Positions 6,667 to 63,041 of a stretch of DNA of 64,000 nucleotides are shown in pieces. The DNA lies in assembly GCF_008831285.2 (NCBI RefSeq), contig NC_045138.2, positions 35,269,115 to 35,333,114 on the forward strand. Direction: 5' to 3'. The translations under genes were made by a program, and so were the position numbers. The stretch comes from Nymphaea colorata (lineage: Eukaryota; Streptophyta; Magnoliopsida; Nymphaeales; Nymphaeaceae). The notes under the pieces are model-generated. The model did no database searches. It was not told the DNA's origin and saw nothing but the letters and a program-made list of their open reading frames with translations. Every line of letters starts with the position of its first letter. Position 1 is the stretch's first letter.

Positions 6667-7379
6667 TGTTGCCGGCCGGCCAATTATGTCTGGCCCGGCC
6701 AAGCTAGTAGAAGGATATGCTACTTGGCTAGCTTAGGCACAGCTCGGAAAGCATGTGAGATCAATCGGACGCTAAGTCAAGCAAAAAACAATGCACGTAG
6801 AATGTGCATCGCGGTGGTGCGGTGACGAAGCGAATCAATGCATCAAGGTGGACAGTCCCTTTGGAAGTGCAAGTCCGTCATTGGGGAAACCAGTGGGTTC
6901 CCCACGCGTAGTGTTTGGATGCACAAAAGGGTGCGCGTGGGTTAGGGGCAATTCCCCCAGTGGGCGCATACGCTGCATTCCACAACCGCGTAGAGTCACG
7001 CAGGGGTGAGCAAGTGAATGTTCATCGTCGAGTAGGGCGATGGTCGGCCGCCTTACTTAATGACATATAGTCGTCAATTGGCTTCGGTTGGGGACTTCTT
7101 CTCAACGGAAGTCTACCCCCACCCAGATTTCGCATGGATGTAGATAGGCACTTGGAGGAATGACGACGTTCTGACAGGGCCTCATGGCCACGGCTTGCCG
7201 ATGGCCGACAATAGGATAAACCTGGGTGATGGTGTGCCGAGTGCTTAGCACTCCTCGTCTAGTCCACAGTCCCGAAGAAAAGATGAATGCTTCTGCTAGC
7301 TTAAGAGAGAGTCGGCTGGCCGAAGGCTTTGGGGAACGTCTTCGGCGCCGCACGGGCTCGAGAAACTCGGCCCGTGACA
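6667..7379 (+). repeat. 5' LTR
   Basis: It begins TGTTGCCGGCC and ends CCCGTGACA, and it is the left copy of the LTR pair. Compared with the right copy it has scattered single-base changes and small indels, for example an extra few bases in the ggccggccaatta stretch close to its start. It is preceded by GAGAA (6662-6666), the 5' target duplication. Confidence 0.92.
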
Positions 7380-7381
7380 AG

Positions 7382-7393
7382 TGGTATCAGAGC
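7382..7393 (+). other. Primer-binding site (initiator tRNA-Met type)
   Basis: TGGTATCAGAGC lies two bases after the 5' LTR end. This is the standard plant PBS complementary to the 3' end of initiator tRNA-Met. It fixes the orientation of the retroelement as plus strand. Confidence 0.93.
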
Positions 7394-7699
7394 AGATGAT
7401 TCTCAGAAAGAACTTAGAAAAATGAGAACACTGCGATGATAACAAACAAATGGTTCTTTAAAATGTTGGCTTGTTTGGTGCCCTAAGGGTTTGGGCATGT
7501 TCATCGGACACTGGTTCAAGTGACCGCGTTGGTGTTGGCCAGATGGAGATCATACGTTCCGAAGATGATGTCTGGGCATCAGGAGCAAAAGGGCCAAGGG
7601 AGCCGCTCGCTGAGACAGATAGGGTGAGACCCGACGTGGAAAAGGATTGTCCAGGAAGGCAAGTGCCCTTAGTGTTGACATGTCTCGAGAAAGGAGCAT
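7394..7699 (+). other. Internal region of the LTR element, left of the hAT insertion
   Basis: Together with 13417-13680 this is all that remains between the LTRs once the hAT is removed. A 79-codon open frame (7471-7710) has no recognisable gag or pol motif and runs to the hAT boundary. I regard the interior as non-coding, as expected for a TRIM-like element. Confidence 0.6.
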
Positions 7700-7707
7700 G
7701 TGCACGG

Positions 7708-7850
7708 TAGGCCTGGGCGTCGGGCCGGGTCTGGGTCGAGGAATTTTGTTATCGGGCCGAACTTGAGCGAGCCCCGCCCAGCCCGAGATCTTAACGGGCC
7801 GGGCCTGGTTATCACTTCTACAGCCCGGCCCGGCCCGACGGCCCGTTAGG
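7708..7850 (+). repeat. Left terminal inverted repeat and subterminal GC-rich region of the hAT
   Basis: The end sequence TAGGCCTGGGCGTCGGGCC is followed by repeated CGGGCC/GGCCCG units on both strands (for example near 7797-7803 and 7823-7835). These are presumed transposase-binding motifs by analogy with other plant hATs. Confidence 0.8.
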
Positions 7851-8591
7851 AACTTAGGTCATGTTCCTCCCGCGCGGCTCCCCTTGTTTCACACTTTCAC
7901 ATTTTCCATCGAGGGAGGCTGGAGGCAGAGTAACAGAGTCTAGCAGATTCGTAGAGCCGCTACCTGCGCTGCAGAGACAGGGAGACTGAGAGTGGGAGAG
8001 ACCGTGTGCCCGCCACCGTTTCCATAGTCGATACCTGATACCCAGCCAGTCTCCGCCACTGTCACTGTCTCCGCTCCACCACTGGGCCACCGATAAAGAA
8101 ATCAATGTGTTTTGTTGATGTAGGTTCTGCAGTATTCTGTATTCATACATAAATTATCACAACCCACATTTTTTTTTCCGAGATCTTGCCTCTTGGATAG
8201 TTGGATGCCGTTGGATCTCACCGCTGCATTGTAAATTTCGTTCTGCAGGTGCGCCATTTTTGTGGTGCAGGAATCCTCAAAAATGTCTTGACAAATGAAA
8301 GGCATTTCTTAGTTTAACTTTAGAAAGCAAAAATAAAGTGATAAATGATATTTTTATTTTGTCTTTTCTTTTTTTGGGTCAAAGTATCACAAAATTTTCT
8401 TGTATTTTTTGTTTTCCTTTATTTTTCTTCTTTTTGGTGTTTCTGAAAATAATGGAAATTTCTGATAATGTTGTTGAGTTAGCACCTCGGTTCCCTGGGT
8501 TACATAGGTGGGGTTTGTTTGGACACGTGCTTTCAGTTACATAGTTATAGTACTCCATTAGCAACTTTGTCCTTTGTCTTATCATTATTAG

Positions 8592-9588
8592 ATGCAATGT
8601 AAGGGGCAGGGTTTCCATGGTAGCCAGAGAATTGTGGAACATAACCTGGGAATTCTTCTGGTGAGAGTTCTTTTATGGGTTTAACTCCATGTAGCATCAT
8701 CTTTGACTAGGATTGTTCTTCTTGTTGTAGCTTAATTGTTTTCTATGCATATCATCTTTGACTAGGATTGTTCTTCTTGTTGTAGCTTAATTGTTTTCTA
8801 TGCATATTTTTCACTAGTGAAGCCTTTCTACAGTCTATCTCTCCTTATAACATTGCAGTCCTTGTCTTTTGTAGATATGGTTCATTTGTTCCTTAATGTA
8901 GAAAGGAATAGGAGATAGAAAACTAGTCAAGGGTAACTAAAGGAGCAAGAAGTTATTATCATGTGGTTTGAGGGTTTTGTTGATTTCATTTTTAAAGACA
9001 AGTTGGTGATTGATATTTTTGGTTGGATCCGGCTGTTAGTCTCACATTCTTAGAGATGTGCTGATGTAATAATTAGCTTCATATGGATGGTGAGGAATAT
9101 AAGCAGATAATCCTTTTGTGGTTTTGTGGTTGATTGTTGCACAGTGGAGAACCTGATGTTCATTCTTGTATGAATAAACCATTAGAAATTGACTATACTT
9201 TTGGCATTTAGCTTCAATGAGAATCTTTAAATATGTATATGTCTCATTTAGCTTAAATTCTAAAAAAATGTTTGTTTTGATTGAGAACAGGTCAAGTTTT
9301 TTGAATTTTATGGACGTAAGCTAAACACAAGTGGTGTTGGGATTTCTTGCAACGTGGGAGGAGCCTTTTTCCTGAAAAGTAGCAAAGGGTACGTTGCATG
9401 TGATTTCTGATTTGCCTATTTGTTCATATGGTTTTTGTCTCCTTTTCATGTAAATATTATATCATATTCACTCTTTTGTGTATGAAATTTGTATTGTTTG
9501 ACAGTTTTATGAAGTTTGAACGGCCGCATCTTATCTCCATTGAGGATCCATCTTAGCTAAACATTGATTTTCGTCATACTGAGGTAGA
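8592..9588 (+). pseudogene. Captured exon fragments of a TRF4/PAPD5-like non-canonical poly(A) polymerase
   Basis: Three exon-like pieces can be read with their original splice signals. 8592-8660 ends EHNLGILL followed by gtgaga. 9291-9388 follows an acceptor cag and reads VKFFEFYGRKLNTSGVG through FFLKSSK, followed by gtacgt. 9505 onward follows ttgacag and reads GFMKFERPHLISIEDPS. Phases agree across both junctions, and the peptides match the PAP/25A-associated region of TRF4/TRF5-type nucleotidyltransferases. The catalytic nucleotidyltransferase domain is absent, and a TAG stop follows EDPS. Because introns are retained, capture was from genomic DNA, not from an mRNA copy. The fragment cannot encode an active enzyme. 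Confidence 0.8.
8696..8805. repeat. Perfect 55-bp tandem duplication
   Basis: The 55-bp unit beginning atcatctttgactaggattg occurs twice head to tail (8696-8750 and 8751-8805) without visible differences. It lies in the first intron-like stretch of the captured TRF4-like fragment. Identity of the copies indicates a recent event. Confidence 0.9.
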
Positions 9589-9675
9589 ACAAGGAAGTAT
9601 TGTTATGGTGGGTGATAGCTCTGTTTCACATTATTTTACTTTTGCAGAATTTTTATGTATGTTTTTTCCTTCCAG

Positions 9676-9739
9676 GTCTATATCATTGATTTTGGACTTG
9701 CAAAGCGATATCGAGATTCTGCAAGCAACCACCACATTC
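9676..9739 (+). pseudogene. Captured casein kinase I exon fragment
   Basis: After a good acceptor (ttccttccag) the sequence reads VYIIDFGLAKRYRDS followed by ASNHHI. This is the DFG activation-segment region diagnostic of casein kinase I, where other kinases differ (DFGLAK + RYRDS). Similarity stops after the HHI motif: the expected proline-tyrosine-arginine continuation is missing and unrelated AT-rich sequence follows. With only about 21 codons and no ATP-binding lobe it is not functional. It comes from a different host gene than the TRF4-like pieces just upstream. Confidence 0.8.
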
Positions 9740-10187
9740 TTTTATATTTCTTAAGGGCTACGTTCTTCTATATTTCTTATGGGGAAGGTAATTTTTTCCA
9801 CAAGACTTGAGTCTCTTTCTTTTACATAGGTTCTTCAAGTTCATATGAAGGTTTGATCCTTAAGTGTTGTTCTGCCTGTATGTTATGTTTGGACCATGGT
9901 AGAAAAATGTTGGCTTTAAAATTATTTTGTTCACTATAACTGATACAGGAAATTCATTAACTGAAAGATCTTAGATTCTACATGGACTATGGACTGTTGA
10001 TGCATTGTGTACACGATATTAAGAACCTAAAATTCGTGTTGTGCTAGTTTTCTTAAACGATTTACTGCTTTGTTGTTTGCCCATTGCAATTCTATGTTTT
10101 AGTGAATCTCTCTTGTGAGAATTTTTGTAATTGGTTTCCCTATGACTCTATGTTTAGGTTGTTCGGATATCATTCAAATAGTAAGTC

Positions 10188-12236
10188 ATGTCATCTAACA
10201 TTAGGGATGAAGAATATCGTCCGATGGCAGATATAGAGGAAGATGAACCTTTTATATGTACTGAAAAAGACGTTCAATCCAAGAGAAAAAGAACTTCGAT
10301 AGTATGGAATGACTTCAAATTAGTAGAATTTAATGGAAAAGAGTGGGCGAAATGCAAACATTGTGGTGAACGATTTACTGCACAAAGTAGCAGTGGTACG
10401 AGTCACTTGAAACGACATAGAGATATATGTGTCAGAAAACAAATACTTGATGGAAAATAAAAAATATTGTCATTGGAGTTGGTGAATCTGGAGCCTCAAA
10501 TTTAAGTCTACACAAACTTGATATGGACAGTATAAGAAAAGGTTTGGCTAAGTTGGCAATAATGCATGCACTTCCTTTCAGTATTGCAGAATATGAATAT
10601 CTTAACGATCTTCTAAAGCTTTGCAATCCAATGTTTGTGCCAATTTCTAGGAGAACACTTACAAAAGACATACAGTCAATGTTCTTGACTGAAAAAAAGA
10701 GATATCAAGAACTTGTAAATAACCAAGTGCAACGGATATCATTGACATTTGATATGTGGTCCTCACAACAGACATTAGGGTACTTATGCTTGATAGCCTC
10801 TCTTATTGATACAGATTGACAATTGCACTCTCACATACTTAATTTTATACATGTGCCTCCACCACATAATGTAATTTGTATATGTGATATTTTATTGGAG
10901 TGCATTACTACTAAGTGGAGAATTCATTTGAAGTTGTTTTCTGTCACTGCTGATAATTGTTCAACAAATGATAGTGGAATAAGTTTGTTGAGAAGGACCG
11001 TAGAAAGGAAAAATAATATTTCATTTCCATTGATAGGGGAGTACTTGCATATTCGTTGTGGTGCAAATATCATAAATCTGATAGTTAAAGATGGTATGAA
11101 TGATATGGACGATACAATTTCAAAAGTTCGTGATAGTGTCAAATATATAAGGGGATCACCAAAACGACTACATACTTTCAAAGAATGTGTAAAGACAATG
11201 GATTTGGATGAGAAAAAAGGTTTAAACTATGATGTTCCTACTCGATGGAATTCTACATTCATAATGTTGAGAGATGCATTATTATTCAAAGATGTCTTTC
11301 AACATTTGGCATCGTGTGATCCTAGTTATACATATTTGCCTTCTGAGGATGAGTGGTCTCATGCATCAGATTTATGTCAGTTCTTAAAGGTCTTTTACGA
11401 TGCAACAAATTTATTATCTACCACCAAGCAGGTAACAGCTAATCCAGTTTTTGAAGAAATCGTATCAATTTACCATCATTTGTATAGGCATCGTGGAACA
11501 TCAAATGAACATATAAGGGCATTGGCATGCAAAATACAAGAAAAATTTGACAAATACTTTAAGGGCTACAATATTCTCTTTGCAATTGCAACTATTTTGG
11601 ATCCTAGGTTCAAGTTGTCATACTTGAAGTATTTGCTTGGCAATTTAGATAAACATGATGTAATAGTGAAATATGGAATTATAAAGAGCACTCTTCATGA
11701 ATTGTATGCTAAGTACAGAAATATGTATGAGGATAGTGACACGTGTAATATGGGAAGAGCCAATGCATCCACTAGTACCATGATTGCAATGGAAGAGTAT
11801 AAAAGTGTGTCTAGATATGGGTTTAAAGCATATGTCAATTCTGTATCTCCTGTAGTGGTTCACACAGATGTAGACAAATATTTGTTTGATCCAATGGAAG
11901 AAATATCACCTAATGTAGAGTTCAACATATTATCTTGGTGAAAGGCAAATGAAAGCAAATACAAATTAGCTATTCATGTATCTACAGTTGCTTCAGAATT
12001 TGCATTCAGTACATCAGGAAGAATTATTAATGATTATCAATGTTCAACTACTCCCGAAAATGTAGAGTCATTAATCTGCACACAAAGTTGGATTCGTGAT
12101 GCAAGCAACTTGTGTGAAATGTAAGATGTTCATGCTTCATAGTTTATACATATTAACTTAATAGTGTGCTTAAATTAATAAGTGTCTTTGTTACAGTTTT
12201 CATGATGCAGAGCACCATTATGACGATGAATGTTAA
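10188..12236 (+). pseudogene. hAT transposase (BED zinc finger, RNase H-like, dimerisation domain), disrupted
   Basis: The N-terminal frame (from ATG 10188) carries a BED finger, CKHCGERF ... HLKRHRDIC, after an acidic leader. The body carries family motifs such as RISLTFDMWSS, LKLFSVTADNCSTND, DVPTRWNSTF and ATILDPRFKL. The C-terminus has the hAT dimerisation core HVSTVASEFAFSTSGRI and SLICTQSWIRDA. A last small exon (12197-12236, donor at 12121) reads FHDAEHHYDDEC and stops at TAA. Breaks: a frameshift at about 10450-10463, and TGA stops at 10817-10819 and 11939-11941. Both stops fall where the family normally has tryptophan. About ten residues also appear deleted before the dimerisation core. 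The architecture is close to DAYSLEEPER/RICESLEEPER-type proteins, but the TIRs and duplication show it belongs to a real transposon. Confidence 0.92.
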
Positions 12237-13216
12237 TCGAGTGCATGCTTATTATGGTAATTTTTGTAATTAATGTTTTGTATTCTATGTTGACAAGCAC
12301 ATGTTAATTTTTATGAACATTTCTTTTTCATGTTAAATTACAAATGGACATTTCAAGCTACAACCATGAATTCTCTACTGACGTTATCATTTCTTTGCAT
12401 TTTTTTGTTGCTCTCAGATATGGGTGTGGCATCTTTGTATAATATCTTGTGCAGAGTCTTGAAGTTCATGTCAAACTTAAACTATGTTGAAAAGTATTTG
12501 TCATTATGACAGTTGATCATATTATGGGTTTGTTCAGTAAATATTATACAGTTCTTCACATTTGTAGAGAACCTTTAACACGAGAGAGAGAGGGACAAAT
12601 TTTGTGCAAAAATTGATACGATGTAATGTAATGATGGTTTGAATGTTGTACACCTCTGGTGCAGTAAGATGAGTTTGTTTTGATTCCTTCACATCCATAC
12701 TGTTGCTGACTTTCTTCTCATGTATAATACAACCAGAGGCAAGCCAGGAGAGGACCTCCTAGACATGCAAGGTCCACCTCATCCTCTTCTAGATCTCCAA
12801 GCCTACGTAAGGTCTGCTGCAAATTTTATTCTTTCGTTGAGCTTGGAATAGATTTTTCTAAACGTTATTGTCATTCCTCTCTGCACAAGTAATGACAATT
12901 ATATGCAAAGCCTTTATCTGAGCTACCATTTTCCTTTATTTTTTTAAGAAAATATTCTCCTATTCTTATAGATAATTTGAACTCTCCAGGGAAAACATGC
13001 AACTGATTCAGGAATTGAGCAAAGCTTCACAGGTTCAGAAGAGCTCAAGTTCACATCAAGATATGCACAGAGTTTTAAGACCCAATGCATTGCTTCTTAC
13101 CTAAAACAACAGTGGTCTTTTTCCATATCTTGTTTTAGATTTCTTGTTTAATACTATCTACTTTTTTCATGTGAGGCAGTAACACGAAAAAATTCGTCCT
13201 TTTTTCAATCATACCA
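12237..13216 (+). other. hAT 3' region with unassigned exon-like segments
   Basis: Downstream of the transposase stop two stretches look like exons. 12737-12809 follows an acceptor (acaaccag) and reads RQARRGPPRHARS then TSSSSRSPSLRK, an Arg/Ser-rich peptide. About 12991 onward follows ctccag and reads GKHATDSGIEQSF and continues open for some 50 codons. I cannot assign a parent gene. They may be more captured host sequence or merely chance open frames. Confidence 0.35.
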
Positions 13217-13408
13217 AGGCCCGACCCGGCCCATCCCAACGGCCTGAGGGACCAACAAAACGGGCCGGGCTGGGCCTTGGTATGGTGGACCTAGCCCAGC
13301 CCGGCCCATCAATATTATCGGGCAGACCCGGGTTTGGGCCTGACGGGCTGACCCGGGCCGGGTCTAAACGGGTCGGGCCGGCCCGGCCCGGCCCGATACC
13401 CACCCGTA
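13217..13408 (+). repeat. Right terminal inverted repeat and subterminal GC-rich region of the hAT
   Basis: Dense CGGGCC/GGCCCG motifs in both orientations lead to the outer end, which reads GGCCCGATACCCACCCGTA on the plus strand. The 8-bp duplication GTGCACGG follows at 13409-13416. Confidence 0.8.
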
Positions 13409-13416
13409 GTGCACGG

Positions 13417-13680
13417 GTTGGCAACACAGCTTGGAAGTTTGTAACTTAGTGGTTGTCGGAGATGTTCCGGACTTTACTAAAGAAAAGTGCAAACAGTGAT
13501 AGAAAAGTGTAATGATGCTAAGGAATGGACTAGAGGCAAAACACCCGAAAGACAAGTAGCTGCGACATGACGAGTGCGTCAACCAGACGAACGGACGAAG
13601 GCTCAGTTCAAAAGAAATCAAGGGAATGGTTGTTGAACTTCTCTCGCTCGGAGCAAAGTCACTGAGGACAGTGACGATTT
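13417..13680 (+). other. Internal region of the LTR element, right of the hAT insertion
   Basis: Continuation of the retroelement interior interrupted at 7699. It has no recognisable coding motif in any frame. It ends in the polypurine tract immediately before the 3' LTR. Confidence 0.6.
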
Positions 13681-13694
13681 TGGTGGTGGGAGAG
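13681..13694 (+). other. Polypurine tract
   Basis: TGGTGGTGGGAGAG, purine-rich and directly abutting the TGTTG start of the 3' LTR. This is the expected position of the plus-strand primer. Confidence 0.75.
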
Positions 13695-14400
13695 TGTTGC
13701 TGGTCGACTATGTCTGGCCCGGCCAAGCTAGTAGAAGGATATGCTACTTGGTCAGCTTAGGCACAGCTCGGGAAGCATGTGGGATCAATCAGACGTCAAG
13801 TCAAGCAAAAAGCAATGCACGTGGAATGTGCATCGCGGTGGTGCAGTGACGAAGCGAATCAATGCATCAAGGTGAACAGTCTCTTTGGAAGTGCAAGTCA
13901 GTCGTTGGGGAATCCAGTGAGTTCCCTACGCGTAGTATTTGGATGCACAAGGGGGTGCGCGTGGGTTAGAGGCAATTCCCCCAGTGGACGCATACGCTGC
14001 GTTCCACAACCGCGTAGTCACGCGGGGGTGAGCATGTGAATGCTCATCGTCGAGTAGGGTGATGGTCGGCCGCCTTACTTAATGACATATGTCGTCAACT
14101 AGCTTCGGCAGGGGACTTCCTCCCAAGGGAAGTCTATCCCTACCCAGATTTTGTATGGATGTAGATAGACACTTGAAGGAATGGCGACGTTCTGACAGGG
14201 CCTTATGGCCACGGCTTGCCGATGGCCGACAATGGGATAAATCTGGGTGATGGTGTGCCGAGTGCATAGCACTTGTCGTCTAGTCCACAGTCCTAAAGAA
14301 AAGGTAAATGCTTCCACTAGTTTAAGAGAGAGTCGGCTGGCCGAAGGCTTTGGGAAACGCCTTCGACGCCGCGCGAGCTCGAGAAACTTGACCCGTGACA
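13695..14400 (+). repeat. 3' LTR
   Basis: It begins TGTTGCTGG and ends ACCCGTGACA, and is followed by GAGAA (14401-14405), the 3' target duplication. It is colinear with the 5' LTR, with scattered substitutions. Confidence 0.92.
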
Positions 14401-21468: not shown

Positions 21469-24178
21469 TCATGGCATTTGAACCATAGATCTTCTAAACC
21501 GGTTGCTCCTGTTGAGCTTCAATCTGATTGATGGAACTTTACGTGATACTGCTTTCCAAATCATTTGAACAGCATCATCACCCTGGGATGGGTATTGATA
21601 CTCAAAATGGTGCTCAATTTCCTTTAACCTTTCCCACATTTTCATCCATTCTTCCTTTGTGATGCTTCTAACTAATTTAATGAGAAAGCCTTCTTTAAGA
21701 GCATCAGATGTACGGACAAAAATGCAGAATTCTGAGTAGTCAAGGACGTCTTCATAAGGGAGCTCAATTTCATCGCTAATAATAACAGGCACACAATGGC
21801 TGGCAATAGCATCAAACAGACGATTGGAGGATGGTGTGTCACCAGCAATGTTCAAACAGAATTTGGAAGAATGCATTCCTTTAGTTGCTTGATTTATCCC
21901 ACCTCCACGTATGCTGCCAAAAGAAAAGTGCACATCCTTCTCATCTTTAAGAATATAGTATAGCTCCTGTCGAATATATCCACCCTGACAATAAATAGAA
22001 AGCAAAATGATTGATTATTGAATCAAAAGCAGTAAACACAATGGAAATGCACTAAAAGAAAGCAACCTGGAAGGTTGTCTGGATGAATATTCTTTTCATG
22101 GGCACAACAAAGAATACCAGCAGCAAAATTTTGCTTTGATTAGGATCTTGAAGAAAGACCCTTAAGTCAAAAATTTTCCTGCAAGTCCTCACAACTAAGC
22201 ATGATTTGGTTGTAAAAATTCATTTTTAGGAATCATAAGCATCTGATTTCATGCAATGACCAGAGATGATGAGTAATAAGAGGACCCTTTAATAGTTTGT
22301 CATCCAAAAATTTTCAGCATCATGCAAAGAGGATCATTCAGTTTCAAATGATCAAAAACAAAACCTAACTAAAACCAACAGAATGGACATTTGTGCTATT
22401 CTTCATGTCCCATTGTATCATCAAACTTCCAAAAACAATCCGTGCTCATTGCTGAGAGATTACAGCAGCCCTTTTTTCTACTTAGGGAGGAAGTGTACAA
22501 TTCAAATTAGAAATGATGCACGTTTATTATTGGAAGCCTGTCAGAAGATAACTTCAAAATATGTTTCATAAGAATTGAGAAAATAGTTACATCTATTGAA
22601 ATCCTATGTGAAGACCATTTTAACATACCAAGTGTCGGTCATTAACTAGGAGCACCTAAAAGAAACGACTTAAGCACCCAAGAGACCAGAAATGCATAAC
22701 AATTTGTACTTATCAAGCAGATGATCCGCTATATTCAATCCTGCAAAAGTTATGGAGATTCAATTCAGCAACAGTACAATTTCTTGTGAACTTTCAGACC
22801 TCAGTTTTGGAATAAGGACAGCTATAAGCAGCAATTTTACTTAAAGTAGTGCACTATTTACTTGGCACAAAAGGTCAATAATGTATATTCTGTTAAATGA
22901 AAAAAATGTCAGTCCTAATTTTGAGAACACTTGTAACAAAGTGAAATTGCAGTGCAAACTTGCTGTAACAAAGTGAAATTGTACGTAGCAACTTTCATTG
23001 AACATCAAGAATATCCAAACTCACTTTCAGATCATTAAGTGCTAATGCGGACTTGAGCGATCATGTATTCAATTTAAAGAAGATGTGATGAAAAGACATA
23101 TTTAATGGCAATTCTGCATTTAAATTGTTAAAAAGGAAACATTACATGAACCTCTAGTGCACTAAAACAGAATGGAAACAATGTTGCTACTCACATCTTT
23201 GCGGTAAATTGCTCCTTGAAAATACAGCAAGATAGGCCGGCTATCAAAGGTGGACGAATCATTATCATAATTTCTGATGACATGCTTGTAAGGAGCAATA
23301 ATATCCTTGTCTATGTTTGCTACATTCGGAGGATACCTTCCAAAGTCAGAAAGTATAAACATGCATGGCCACAACTTCATCCTTGCGTCCAGCATACTGT
23401 TTGGGTGATGTGCAAGTATCACATGATCACGTCCACCTGATCTCTTCCATTCGTGCTGCACTCTTAGATAAGCTACCAGTTTATCCTGTAATGCCCTATT
23501 CAAGCTTACTTTTTCTTTCGGGTTCACCTTTGAATACCGATTATAACTCAATGAAGAGAAAAATGGAACAAATATGATATCAGCCTTACTGGAATTGTCA
23601 ACTCTTACAGCATTACAAGGGCCTCTTCTGTTAGAAAACCTAGATGATAAAAGATCCAAAGTAAGCCAATATTCTGTACTATGTTGAAGATTTAATCCAC
23701 CAGGATAATCTGGAACTCCGTTCGAGATATCAGGCCAAACGCTGTCTGTCCCTTTCCAGCCTAGCAAACCAAAATGAAATTCAGAAGGCAGGTCATACAT
23801 AAAAACTTTCAGAGTCGTCTTGTTAGGCTCACAAGCGCTGGGTTGTTCTTTAACTTCGTCCTGGATGGTTGCTATTGTAGGCGGCGATTCATGATGCTCT
23901 TTGCTAAGGTCCCTCGGTGTTGATTTAAAATTGTCAACTACAGAGAAGAGCTTTTTGTCAGGCAGAAAACCGTGTTCAATGAAATGCGGGGATCCTGCTG
24001 ATTGGAGGAAAAAGAACCACGAGAAGACGAAGACAAACACAGACACAGTGAAGAGGCAGAACAAGTATCTCCTTCTTTCAAATCCAACTGAATGTGGAAT
24101 CCGGCCATCACCCATTGCAGTATTGCATACGATACGAAATAAATTTCTACTGATACATGAAGAAATAGATATGCCCAA
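21469..24178 (-). CDS. ARAD1: ARAD1-like arabinosyltransferase (GT47 exostosin family)
   Basis: Two exons on the minus strand, 24178-23195 and 21984-21469, with a 1210-bp phase-0 intron, encode 499 residues. A type II membrane anchor follows RRR near residue 35 (YLFCLFTVSVFVFVFSWFFF), then a low-complexity stem. The exostosin domain starts at LKVFMYDLPSEFHFGLLGWK. It includes PGGLNLQHSTEYWLTLDLL, HHPNSMLDARMKLWP, and after the intron HSSKFCLNIAGDTPSSNRLF and DAIASHCVPVIISDEIELPY. The last are the usual donor-binding motifs of the GT47 C-terminal half. These match the ARAD1/ARAD2 subgroup, Golgi enzymes implicated in pectic arabinan side chains. I used the first Met (24178); a second Met at 24115 (MGDGRIPHSVG) still precedes the membrane segment and is equally possible. 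Confidence 0.9.
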
Positions 24179-36879: not shown

Positions 36880-37234
36880 AAGGAAAGACATGCATGCAAG
36901 GAATGAAATAGAAAGTTGTTCCTTAGAGAGGAGGTGACATTGTACTCATCCCAATCCCAAATCACCACCAACAGATGAAAAAAGCAGGAATCAGACCGGT
37001 TAAAGTAGACAAGTGCCCATCGGCACCATTATGGCGGGTCCACCTTCCCCCTCCCCTCTGACCTTCGCTAAATTCTATATTCCTGTTACCCATCGCTCAA
37101 TCCCTAAAACTGTAAACTGACGCCACATCTCGCTTTCTCCTCTACATTATTTGTCGTTATTCTTCATCGAAATTACCAACACAGAGAGAGAGAGTGAGTG
37201 AGAGAGAGAGAGACTCCCAGACACTTCTCTCTAC

Positions 37235-37244
37235 TTTATATAAA
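37235..37244 (+). promoter_or_regulatory. Putative TATA box of the MIF gene
   Basis: TTTATATAAA follows a GA-rich stretch (about 37183-37212) and lies 215 bases upstream of the chosen start codon. The GA repeats just before it are typical of plant core promoters. Inferred only. Confidence 0.4.
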
Positions 37245-37458
37245 GCCCAAGGCTTTCAATGACGGGGTGAGTCATGCAGCAAATATCCTCGAAATTAACT
37301 TGGAGCTTCTCATCCAACCTATGCCAATAGCTGGTTTATTTCATCCTCCATCTCAATTTCAAAGGAGACCCAAGAACGCAACTTGTCCTTTATCGGAGAA
37401 TCAGGTTTCTCAGGGCGGACCAACCAACGGCCATAGACTCCTCCTCCCTTATAATAAC

Positions 37459-37746
37459 ATGAGGTCTCAAGAATCCCAAAAGCTGAATGGGGAGTCACCG
37501 ATGAAGAAAGCCAACGTCTCCACTGCTAAGAAGGGAGTCAGGTACAGGGAATGCAGGAAGAATCACGCTGCCAGTATTGGCGGCTATGCGGTTGATGGCT
37601 GCAGGGAATTCATGGCTAGTGGGGAGGAAGGAACAAGCGGCGCTCTCAAATGCGCTGCTTGCAGCTGCCACAGGAGTTTCCACAGGCGGGAGGCTGAAGA
37701 AGAGAGCTTTTGCGACTGTTCTTCGAAAACTACTGCAAAGAAATGA
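37459..37746 (+). CDS. MIF: Mini zinc finger protein (ZF-HD dimerisation domain only)
   Basis: Intronless frame of 95 residues from ATG 37459, or 81 from ATG 37501. The ZF-HD zinc finger spans roughly residues 27-77: [20 protein letters not shown], then [12 protein letters not shown], then [16 protein letters not shown]. It has the Cys/His pairs and the invariant GGYAVDGC core. There is no homeodomain, and the protein stops shortly after the finger ([11 protein letters not shown]). That defines MIF proteins, which form inactive heterodimers with full-length ZF-HD transcription factors and affect hormone responses. The frame stays open upstream to 37198, so an N-terminal extension from ATG 37321 or earlier cannot be excluded. 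Family members are near 90 residues, which favours the start used here. Confidence 0.9.
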
Positions 37747-51426: not shown

Positions 51427-53193
51427 ATGGTTAGAGAATTGGAGCCTGTGTCATTCTATAACCGTCTCCGTGAATCGGCGTCCTTGTCCTCGTCCTCGCC
51501 ACTGTTGATCTTCCCCTCAACTTCCGATGTCGATTCCCTCTGTGCCTTGAAGATCGTAACCCATGTCCTCTCCTCCGATTCAATTCGTTATTCTTGCTAC
51601 CCCATCTCATCGTTTGCGGAGGTTGATCGATTGGCCGGATCCAGCCTCCGATCTGATGATCACCCCATCTCCATCCTCTTGATTAATTGGGGATGCCACC
51701 GAGACCTGCGCCGGATCCTAAATCTGGGGCCTCTAGCTCGGGTTTTCGTCATCGACAGCCACAGGCCGATCCATTTGCACAACCTCAGCAGCAGGAACGG
51801 CCAGGTCGTCGTCCTCTACACTCGGAATGACGAGGCCATAGCCGATGTTTCCTATGGCGTCGATGTTTCCGAGCTGGCGGATGCTGTAGATTTGGACTCT
51901 GATGATGAGTTTGGCGACGAGAGCGACAGCGATCTTGATGATGACTCTGACGACAGCGAGAGTGATGCCGATGAAGACGAGGACGGTAGGAGGCGGAAGC
52001 GGCGGAGGAGATCGGGGGAGTCGGATGTTGATCGGAAGAAAAGAGAGTACTATCGATTGGGTAGCTTCCACGGGAAGCCCTCTGGTTGCTTGATGTTCGA
52101 TGTGTCCAATTCGTTGAGAAAGAACACAAACGAGCTCTTGTGGCTTGCCTGTGTTTCTCTGACTGATCAGTTTGTTCACGAGAGGCTGACCAACGAGAGG
52201 TACCGAGATGGAGCTGATGAGTTGGAGCATCACATCAATAGCTCCGGGAATCTTGACGCCGTGATGTCAATCACTCTTAAAGATGGTACCAAGATCCGAG
52301 CTCCAGACGCTTCAAGAATTGCTTATGAAGAGGAGCCTAGGTTGATGCTATTGCGGGAATGGACTCTGTTCGATTCGATGCTCTGCTCGTCATATATTGC
52401 TACCAAGCTTAAGACTTGGAGCGACAGCGGGCTGAAAAGGCTGAAATTAGCGTTGGCAACGATGGGATTTTCTCTGCTAGATTGCCAGCAGAAGTATCAG
52501 TACATGAGCAGTGAAGTGAAGGAGAACATGAAGGGCGAGTTCAAAAGGCTTCTGCCTCAGTTAGGACTAGAAGAAGTTTACTACAGGAGCTTTGTTAGGC
52601 TGCATGGTTATGGGTCTAAGGTGTCCGCTGCTGATGTGGTCTACGGAGTCACTGCCTTGCTTGAATCCTTTACTGAGTCGAAGGGTTCCTCTGCTGAACA
52701 GTTTTGGTATGCGTACTCGGCATTATCACTAGGCAATCTCGATAAGTTGCGAAAGGGGATGCACAGCGCAATACAGATACAAAGGGCTATATTGAGACAA
52801 GGTAGCTGTGCCATCACCAAAAGTGGGTATATAAGAAGTAGTAGGAAATTCAGATGGTTAAAGATTGAAGATGCAGTTGATACTAACTTGTTGGGTTACC
52901 CTCAAGCACTGACCAAATTCTGCTACTTTCTCATGGATGCTCTACTAGAAAAGGGTGCAAAGATGAAGCCTCTGATCTGCGCATGCTTAACACCAGACCC
53001 AAGCAAAGTTTTGGTTGTAGGCATTCCTGGTAGGCCGAAATTTATGCAAGGGAATCGCTTTGGCAATGCCTTCCGGGCAGCAGCAGAGCAGATTGAGGCA
53101 GAGTTCTTCCACGAACTCTTTGAGTCTTCTTGGATTATCTTGGACCGAGTTGCTGTTAATTCTTTCATGATCAGGGTCTCCGAGAAACTCTAG
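51427..53193 (+). CDS. CDC45: CDC45, DNA replication initiation factor (CMG helicase subunit)
   Basis: Single exon of 588 residues, matching the family's usual length. The N-terminal RecJ/DHH-like fold has LIFPSTSDVDSLCALKIV (conserved Asp-x-Asp) and LLINWGCHRDL. An acidic insert follows around residues 155-186 (mostly Asp, Glu and Ser), then a basic patch RRRKRRRR, both hallmarks of eukaryotic CDC45. The C-terminal half includes WTLFDSML, FKRLLPQLGL and the conserved SFVRLHGYGSKVSAADVVYG. It binds MCM2-7 and GINS to form the replicative helicase at S phase. The start fits the family N-terminus and is preceded by an A-rich context (aaaaatATGG). No frame disruption seen. E2F-type sites lie about 300 bases upstream. 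Confidence 0.97.
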   Translation: MVRELEPVSFYNRLRESASLSSSSPLLIFPSTSDVDSLCALKIVTHVLSSDSIRYSCYPISSFAEVDRLAGSSLRSDDHPISILLINWGCHRDLRRILNLGPLARVFVIDSHRPIHLHNLSSRNGQVVVLYTRNDEAIADVSYGVDVSELADAVDLDSDDEFGDESDSDLDDDSDDSESDADEDEDGRRRKRRRRSGESDVDRKKREYYRLGSFHGKPSGCLMFDVSNSLRKNTNELLWLACVSLTDQFVHERLTNERYRDGADELEHHINSSGNLDAVMSITLKDGTKIRAPDASRIAYEEEPRLMLLREWTLFDSMLCSSYIATKLKTWSDSGLKRLKLALATMGFSLLDCQQKYQYMSSEVKENMKGEFKRLLPQLGLEEVYYRSFVRLHGYGSKVSAADVVYGVTALLESFTESKGSSAEQFWYAYSALSLGNLDKLRKGMHSAIQIQRAILRQGSCAITKSGYIRSSRKFRWLKIEDAVDTNLLGYPQALTKFCYFLMDALLEKGAKMKPLICACLTPDPSKVLVVGIPGRPKFMQGNRFGNAFRAAAEQIEAEFFHELFESSWIILDRVAVNSFMIRVSEKL

Positions 53194-61842: not shown

Positions 61843-63041
61843 TCAGAACAATGCGTCCGGGTGACAAACTTCTGGGATCTTGATGATGTCTTCCTCTTGT
61901 CCTGCTGCCTCTTCTAGAAGCCATTTCTCTAACATGGAGAGAGGTGGGTGGCCCTCAATTCTTTGTTTGCTTTCGTTCATGGAGCAATCGGAGGAAGATT
62001 TTTCGTGCGTAAGGCAGCTGACATTCTCGAAGGCGAGTAGAGAGTCTAGCTCTTCCTGCGACATGAGCTCTCCTTGAAATTGCTCAGACTTAGGTTGACT
62101 GCATGCACCGATAGCAGTAGCAGCGGCGGTGGCATCACTAGCAACCTGTTGGACTGGCGGTTTGCGAGGCGACTTGGGGGAAGACCTTAACCAACCTTCA
62201 AGAAGTCGTGATATGTTCTCCGTGCTTGACGCATAGGTCGAACTCTGACATAGCCTGGAATCTGAGTTCATACGATCGCCTTCTGACCTTGATCTCTGGT
62301 TGCTGTTCTGACTAATGAGCTGCGAGTTGCTTATGCCAGATCCCGTATGAATGTCCAGTGCTGCTTGGAATTTTTTAATCTTCTTCTTCAAATGGGTATT
62401 CCAGTAATTCTTGATATCATTATCGGTCCTTTGGGGAAGGTATGAAGCAATGGCAGCCCATCTGAATATTAATGTTCCAAAACCGCGTAAAAACAAAACA
62501 GGATGAGCAATCGCAGGGATTCCTTTAGAATGAGGTAGAAATTTTGATAAAGGAAGCATACGCCTCCGACTCCGAACAAAAATTTCATACCGCAAACCAT
62601 GCAATTTCCAGTTGAGCAAGTACCTGTTTCCTAACAAGGCCTGAAGGTGGATAATCATGCCTTCTTCGTGCGGAGTAAAATTCCCACGTTTGATTCCTGG
62701 TCTCAGGTAATTAGTCCATCGGAGTCTACAGCTTTTACTGCATCGCATCAGACCTATAGAACCCAAAAAGCACGGAATAAGATTATTATTGGAGATGTTT
62801 TGTCATGAAAATTGTCCTCAACTGTAAGCCACCTTGCTTGAGATTAGACTAGTCAGAATTACAATTTAAAAAGAGGAGAACATTTTTCCGCTAACCTGGG
62901 AGCACTAGATGGAGGGAAAAGTTACAACTAGTTGAAAAAACAAAACCCAACTCTCCGCTAAAATTCATACAAAGGGGCGGTCCATATGGTTCAGCTTATG
63001 TTAAATTGCGTCGTCAGTTTCGAATGAACAAATAGATACAC

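Follow-up and report, generated by a model that had tools for sequence, protein, structure and literature searches.

Host gene exons lying inside a DNA transposon raise two questions, namely whether the element captured them and, if so, by which route they came in. We addressed both in a 64,000-nucleotide stretch of Nymphaea colorata DNA (C1:35269115-35333114 of the 407.8-Mb assembly, hereafter the window; C-labels are contigs, and genome searches were run within this same assembly), where a first-pass annotation had proposed a hAT element carrying exon pieces of two unrelated host genes.

The element itself was borne out. Consistently with the 8-bp target site duplication (TSD) of the hAT superfamily, exact copies of GTGCACGG flank the window element, and AAATGATT flanks E42, a relative described below; the terminal inverted repeats of the superfamily are present in imperfect form, with 9 of the first 14 bases matching in the window element and 11 of 12 in E42. 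The insertion lies between two repeats that are 91% identical, the first directly followed by a TGGTATCAGAGC stretch that we take to resemble a primer-binding site; together these point to a small LTR retrotransposon as the most likely insertion site. No convincing TSD of the LTR retrotransposon was found, the sole 5-bp match sitting off the LTR edges. The features are as follows.

6685-7379, + strand: probable 5' LTR of the host retrotransposon, 91% to 13709-14400
7700-7707, no strand: left TSD GTGCACGG, exact match to 13409-13416
7708-13408, + strand: hAT element, 5701 bp, with imperfect terminal inverted repeats
13409-13416, no strand: right TSD GTGCACGG, exact match to 7700-7707
13709-14400, + strand: probable 3' LTR of the host retrotransposon, 91% to 6685-7379

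The internal region of this retrotransposon (6685-14400) is short once the hAT insert is set aside. Two inverted repeat pairs were also seen inside the hAT element: one at 12413-12456/12879-12922 (44 nt, 70% complementary), whose second arm ends where the match between the window and the relative E41 stops and which may be due to chance, and one at 13205-13232/13262-13289, within the end region. Elsewhere in the window, an uninterrupted 588-aa reading frame at 51427-53193 encodes CDC45 (Pfam 1.6e-158), and reading frames for exostosin GT47 (two frames), for a member of the plant-specific ZF-HD family and for MYB lie near transposons (21469-24178, 37198-37746, 61843-62766).

Between the ends lies a transposase gene that is recognisable, as had been claimed, but broken.

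10188-12124, + strand: broken hAT transposase gene, with Pfam hAT-like_RNase-H at 9.9e-21 in its open part, 10823-11941

Besides this hAT domain, it aligns at 53-56% with a frame of 652 aa found in this genome. A frame change, together with one and two in-frame stops in its two aligned parts, rules out an intact transposase in the window copy.

Upstream of the transposase, and in the same orientation, we recovered the three phase-consistent TRF4-like exons with introns that the first-pass annotation had described. They belong to a longer segment of a TRF4-like gene.

8311-9550, + strand: TRF4-like gene segment carried by the element, 1.24 kb, introns included, 94.9% to parent C9:1694802 over 1206 aligned bases
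8592-8660, + strand: TRF4-like exon piece 1 (reading frame, Pfam, PDB)
9291-9388, + strand: TRF4-like exon piece 2 (reading frame, Pfam, PDB)
9505-9550, + strand: TRF4-like exon piece 3, with parent and cargo diverging after GAGGATCCA

The pieces splice in phase (ILL/VKFF and SSKG/FMKF, the slash marking the junction), pieces 1 and 2 being followed by GT and pieces 2 and 3 preceded by AG, and the spliced peptide matched Pfam PAP_assoc (2e-15) and, in PDB, Poly(A) RNA polymerase protein 2 (1.8e-4). Relative to the C9 parent, the window differed at 4 of 209 positions in exons and 58 of 997 outside them (exon borders being approximate), and the parent has more coding sequence beyond the cargo end point. 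A genome DNA search with 8560-9820 gave 10 matches, all 10 candidates being scored: the window itself, two full-length cargo copies (C5, 92%; C1:22.74 Mb, 91%), the TRF4 parent on C9 (89%), two CK1-bearing copies (C463, C11), the casein kinase I (CK1) parent in two pieces on C1, a CK1-like sequence on C2 (87%) and 46 bases at C1:24581924. The exons thus match nucleotidyltransferase and CK1 genes, whose parent loci lie on C9 and C1.

The CK1 cargo was less simple than the single exon with a 3' acceptor that had been proposed: the exon and its AG stand at 9676-9742, and a second, non-adjacent piece of CK1 runs on to 9923.

9565-9610, + strand: short filler, 91% to locus C1:24581924
9620-9742, + strand: CK1 piece 1, comprising intron end, acceptor and exon start VYIIDFGLAKRYRDSASNHH; exon part 9676-9742; 118/123 bases match C1:29364656-29364778
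9743-9923, + strand: CK1 piece 2, lying ~900 bp beyond piece 1 in the parent gene; 155/170 bases identical to the parent over 9755-9923

The exon at 9676-9742 matched a PDB casein kinase I-like entry (1.4e-6), while a Pfam search with it gave no match. In the C1 parent gene a ENKNLTGTARYAS exon separates the two pieces, and this parent, like the C9 TRF4 parent, has further exons absent from the cargo. At the joint, the cargo tracks parent positions 2530-2553 and restarts at 2525, leaving a short repeat that is also present in E42; the path within the parent gene is thus a jump of ~900 bp forward and then of some 28 bp back. Template switching would leave such a repeat, and a deletion joint followed by tandem duplication equally would.

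A further set of pieces was found on the other side of the transposase.

12656-12839, + strand: piece of an RS-rich locus (named by eye from its reading frame), 91% to C13:12503210-12503387
12837-13119, + strand: PDR/ABCG-transporter-like piece 1 (tentative label), 96% to C10:10414987-10415270
13119-13200, + strand: piece 2 of the same C10 region, ~2.1 kb further along, 90% to C10:10417406-10417496

Where the C13 piece meets the C10 piece, they share a TTG overlap. The search with 12640-13200 returned 14 matches (14/14 candidates scored), which were the window and two full-cargo copies, three copies sharing 12640-12923 (C581, C13:17.23 Mb and C463), loci on C13 (91%) and C11 (86%) for the RS-rich piece, the C10 region in two pieces (96%, 90%), and four others for the C10-derived piece on C10 (93%, 90%, 83%) and C9 (76%). 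Two of the copies sharing 12640-12923, C581:9820-10103 and C13:17233496-17233778, lie near hAT domain matches. The C10 frame reads ENMQLIQELSKASPGSEELKFTSRYAQSF(stop)TQCIACYLKQQWSYWRN, presumably a PDR-type ABC transporter; because of the stop in this exon of the C10 locus, the true donor may be a relative of the locus matched. Searches of the C10 and C13 pieces in Pfam, NCBIfam and PDB gave nothing convincing, the RS-rich piece being without a family match and the C10 parent exon matching CDR1 in PDB only at E 0.35. Two host genes within 8592-9739 therefore describe only part of the cargo: TRF4 and CK1 stand, but TRF4 spans 8311-9550, CK1 extends to 9923 and 12656-13200 comes from two further loci, so that at least four loci are represented.

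To follow the cargo in other copies, we used 20 stretches of ~10 kb around 20 of 150 scored Dimer_Tnp_hAT places (1113 candidates in a first look), plus stretches around the cargo matches. Same-cargo copies do exist. L040 is a full sister of the window element, with the same cargo and 92% identity over 7721-13408 at another site (TSD 7/8), and L039 has kept the same cargo and lost the transposase and 3' end. Among window, L039 and L040 the TRF4 segment was 95.5-96.7% identical in the alignment, and 94 bp of the C9 parent, directly upstream of exon piece 1, were absent from all three, as expected if the segment was captured once and then spread; had the parent acquired the 94 bp later, the picture would be the same. 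The window TRF4 intron also contains a perfect 55-bp tandem duplication (8696-8805), absent from L039, L040 and the parent.

Other relatives differed in what they carry. In E41, TRF4 is reduced to its tail (from 9485); CK1, the transposase and the sequence as far as 12923 are retained, and a PGK exon with its stop follows (6.3e-17). E42 has CK1, a FolD exon with a stop (1.9e-23) and an SPB4-like helicase C-terminus (6.8e-18), and holds 133 bp of the filler locus C1:24581924 at 97%. The C10 piece is common to the window, L039 and L040 and in part to E41, and one or both end regions of the window element are shared with L040, E41 and E42. L021, a more distant relative, has EMP70 (4.7e-20) between transposase and 3' end region. 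No family emerged when the 5' cargo of L021, E41 and E42 was scanned with Pfam in the sense direction, and Pfam scans of the L027 cargo gave no family match on either strand.

The transposase DNA of the window, L040, E41, E42 and L027 was 94.3-96.0% alike (L027 to window, 95.4%) and 91.4-92.8% alike when compared with L021; the L040 alignment contained one in-frame stop, and L039 had no transposase match. L022-L024 (83%) have open 657-aa transposase frames; two of these related hAT copies, L022 (1133-6504) and L023 (1133-6488), combine such a frame and ~83% DNA identity to the window copy with exact TSDs. In the remaining 15 fetched loci, the transposase was 70-71% alike in 12 and gave short matches only in L016, L025 and L028. 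Exact TSDs were confined to the window, E42, L022 and L023; none was found at L021, L024, L027, L039 or E41, the E41 search allowing at most 2 mismatches and no gaps (its flanks, by eye, are GTGAAAA and GTGAAAGA).

The pieces thus sit inside the element, between its TSDs, have counterparts at four or more loci elsewhere, are common to copies at other sites and vary among copies, and the parents are colinear with the cargo across introns at 89-96% identity. From sequence comparison, we consider it highly likely that the hAT captured the host gene pieces and that the window element, now decayed, belongs to a hAT family with its own transposase, which appears to have copied pieces of unlinked host loci time and again, together with their introns, to both sides of that transposase. 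Among the copies examined we identified no element free of cargo, and the capture step itself is inferred.

As to the route, the pieces were probably gained by template-switching repair, in which the gap left by excision would be filled by synthesis that switches templates to other loci, after which the element would transpose with its cargo. This is favoured, though not proven, because the source loci are unlinked, one junction shows an overlap and the CK1 path jumps forward and back. A less likely though serious route, under which the capture would still be by the hAT, is the formation of a hybrid element, proposed for Pack-TYPE elements (PMC8903248, and summarised in PMC13317346; both in the portions available): two neighbouring members lose their facing ends, and the outer ends mobilise the DNA between. 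Such a step could account for each contiguous piece, such as the TRF4 segment, but sits poorly with cargo that has matches at five loci (C1 contributing two, and C9, C10 and C13 one apiece) and with the forward-and-back jump within the one CK1 gene. Self-comparison of the window element also revealed no internal copy of the ends, a weak control in that the outer-end pair went unreported too.

The two readings in which the hAT did not do the capturing fare far worse. Helitrons frequently carry multiple gene pieces that all face the same way, and cargo of this kind could have been brought by a Helitron or a Pack-MULE nested in the hAT; this is highly improbable, given that the pieces lie on both sides of the transposase, that sharing boundaries differ between copies and that neither TRF4 nor CK1 pieces are enclosed by the two inverted repeat pairs listed above. 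That the pieces are remnants of host genes already at the insertion site, for which nothing was found in favour, is contradicted by the TSD-bounded element lying within an LTR retrotransposon and by the same cargo at other sites with parents elsewhere, and we regard it as virtually dismissed; the pieces stay inside the hAT and travel with it to L040 and L039, as the first-pass annotation would have it.

An order of events can also be suggested. CK1 would have been gained before TRF4, because E42 joins CK1 to a longer stretch of the C1:24581924 filler without TRF4, the alternative being a later loss of TRF4 in E42. E41 would then have lost most of TRF4 and gained PGK, and the window copy would have jumped into the LTR retrotransposon and decayed.

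All six pieces with a Pfam or PDB match (TRF4, CK1, EMP70, PGK, FolD and SPB4-like) read sense to the transposase, which by coin toss would happen 1 time in 64, although the count is small and was made after the pattern had been seen. When the antisense strand was scanned with Pfam, the cargo of the window, L021, L027, E41 and E42 gave no hit, at low sensitivity: the same type of scan on the window sense strand detected only TRF4, at 1.5e-4 and just under the Pfam cut-off, and missed CK1 and the 3' pieces. The sense-only pattern is therefore a lead, not a result. A doubtful extension of it is that orientation selection makes the family a serial collector of exons, which would keep exchanging sense host exons on both sides of the transposase because these supply splice sites and 3' ends to its transcript; the PGK and FolD pieces do bring stop codons and following sequence. 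If true, captured genes would become working parts of the transposon. Titles and abstract openings from a literature search contained no account of sense-only cargo in hAT elements, which does not imply its absence from print.

Whatever the orientation means, TRF4, CK1, PGK or FolD exons met when annotating such a genome may belong to the cargo of a transposon. The first-pass annotation had also held that capture is rarely seen next to a recognisable hAT transposase. A 2011 maize study (PMC3260210, in the part available) does call gene capture rare in the hAT superfamily, but transposase together with captured gene pieces is a kind of hAT element already in print: in grapevine Hatvine-6 (Benjak et al. 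2008, PMC2528002), as described in the excerpt available, transposase and terminal inverted repeats are shared, while the remaining sequence is frequently copy-specific and in many cases matches introns and exons of genes. The window family likewise has a shared transposase and ends with copy-specific genic cargo (that of L027 being without a family match); it differs, the likeness being one of description, in that its donor loci, junctions and likely capture order have been worked out. The Pack-hAT elements of maize and rice (Gisby and Catoni 2022, PMC8903248), in the sections available, have hAT ends, an 8-nt TSD and captured coding DNA, which in Pack-TYPE elements sometimes comes from several loci. 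The window element similarly has host coding DNA between hAT ends, but the packFinder rule for Pack-TYPE elements admits no transposase match and the window copy retains its broken transposase, whereas L039 is without a transposase match but has also lost its 3' end. Maize Ds2 and Ds-l4, as covered in the same part of PMC3260210, belong to the hAT superfamily and hold intron-bearing gene pieces from other chromosomes, with repair errors after excision being discussed; the window element resembles them in carrying gene pieces with introns from elsewhere, and differs in that they are Ds-type and non-autonomous, whereas its own pieces lie on either side of a transposase gene and derive from several loci. 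The value of the present family thus lies in its identified donor loci, the turnover of cargo between copies and the jump within CK1: a single genome shows the donors, the junctions and both the shared and the copy-specific cargo, which makes the capture order and the repair route arguable from sequence.
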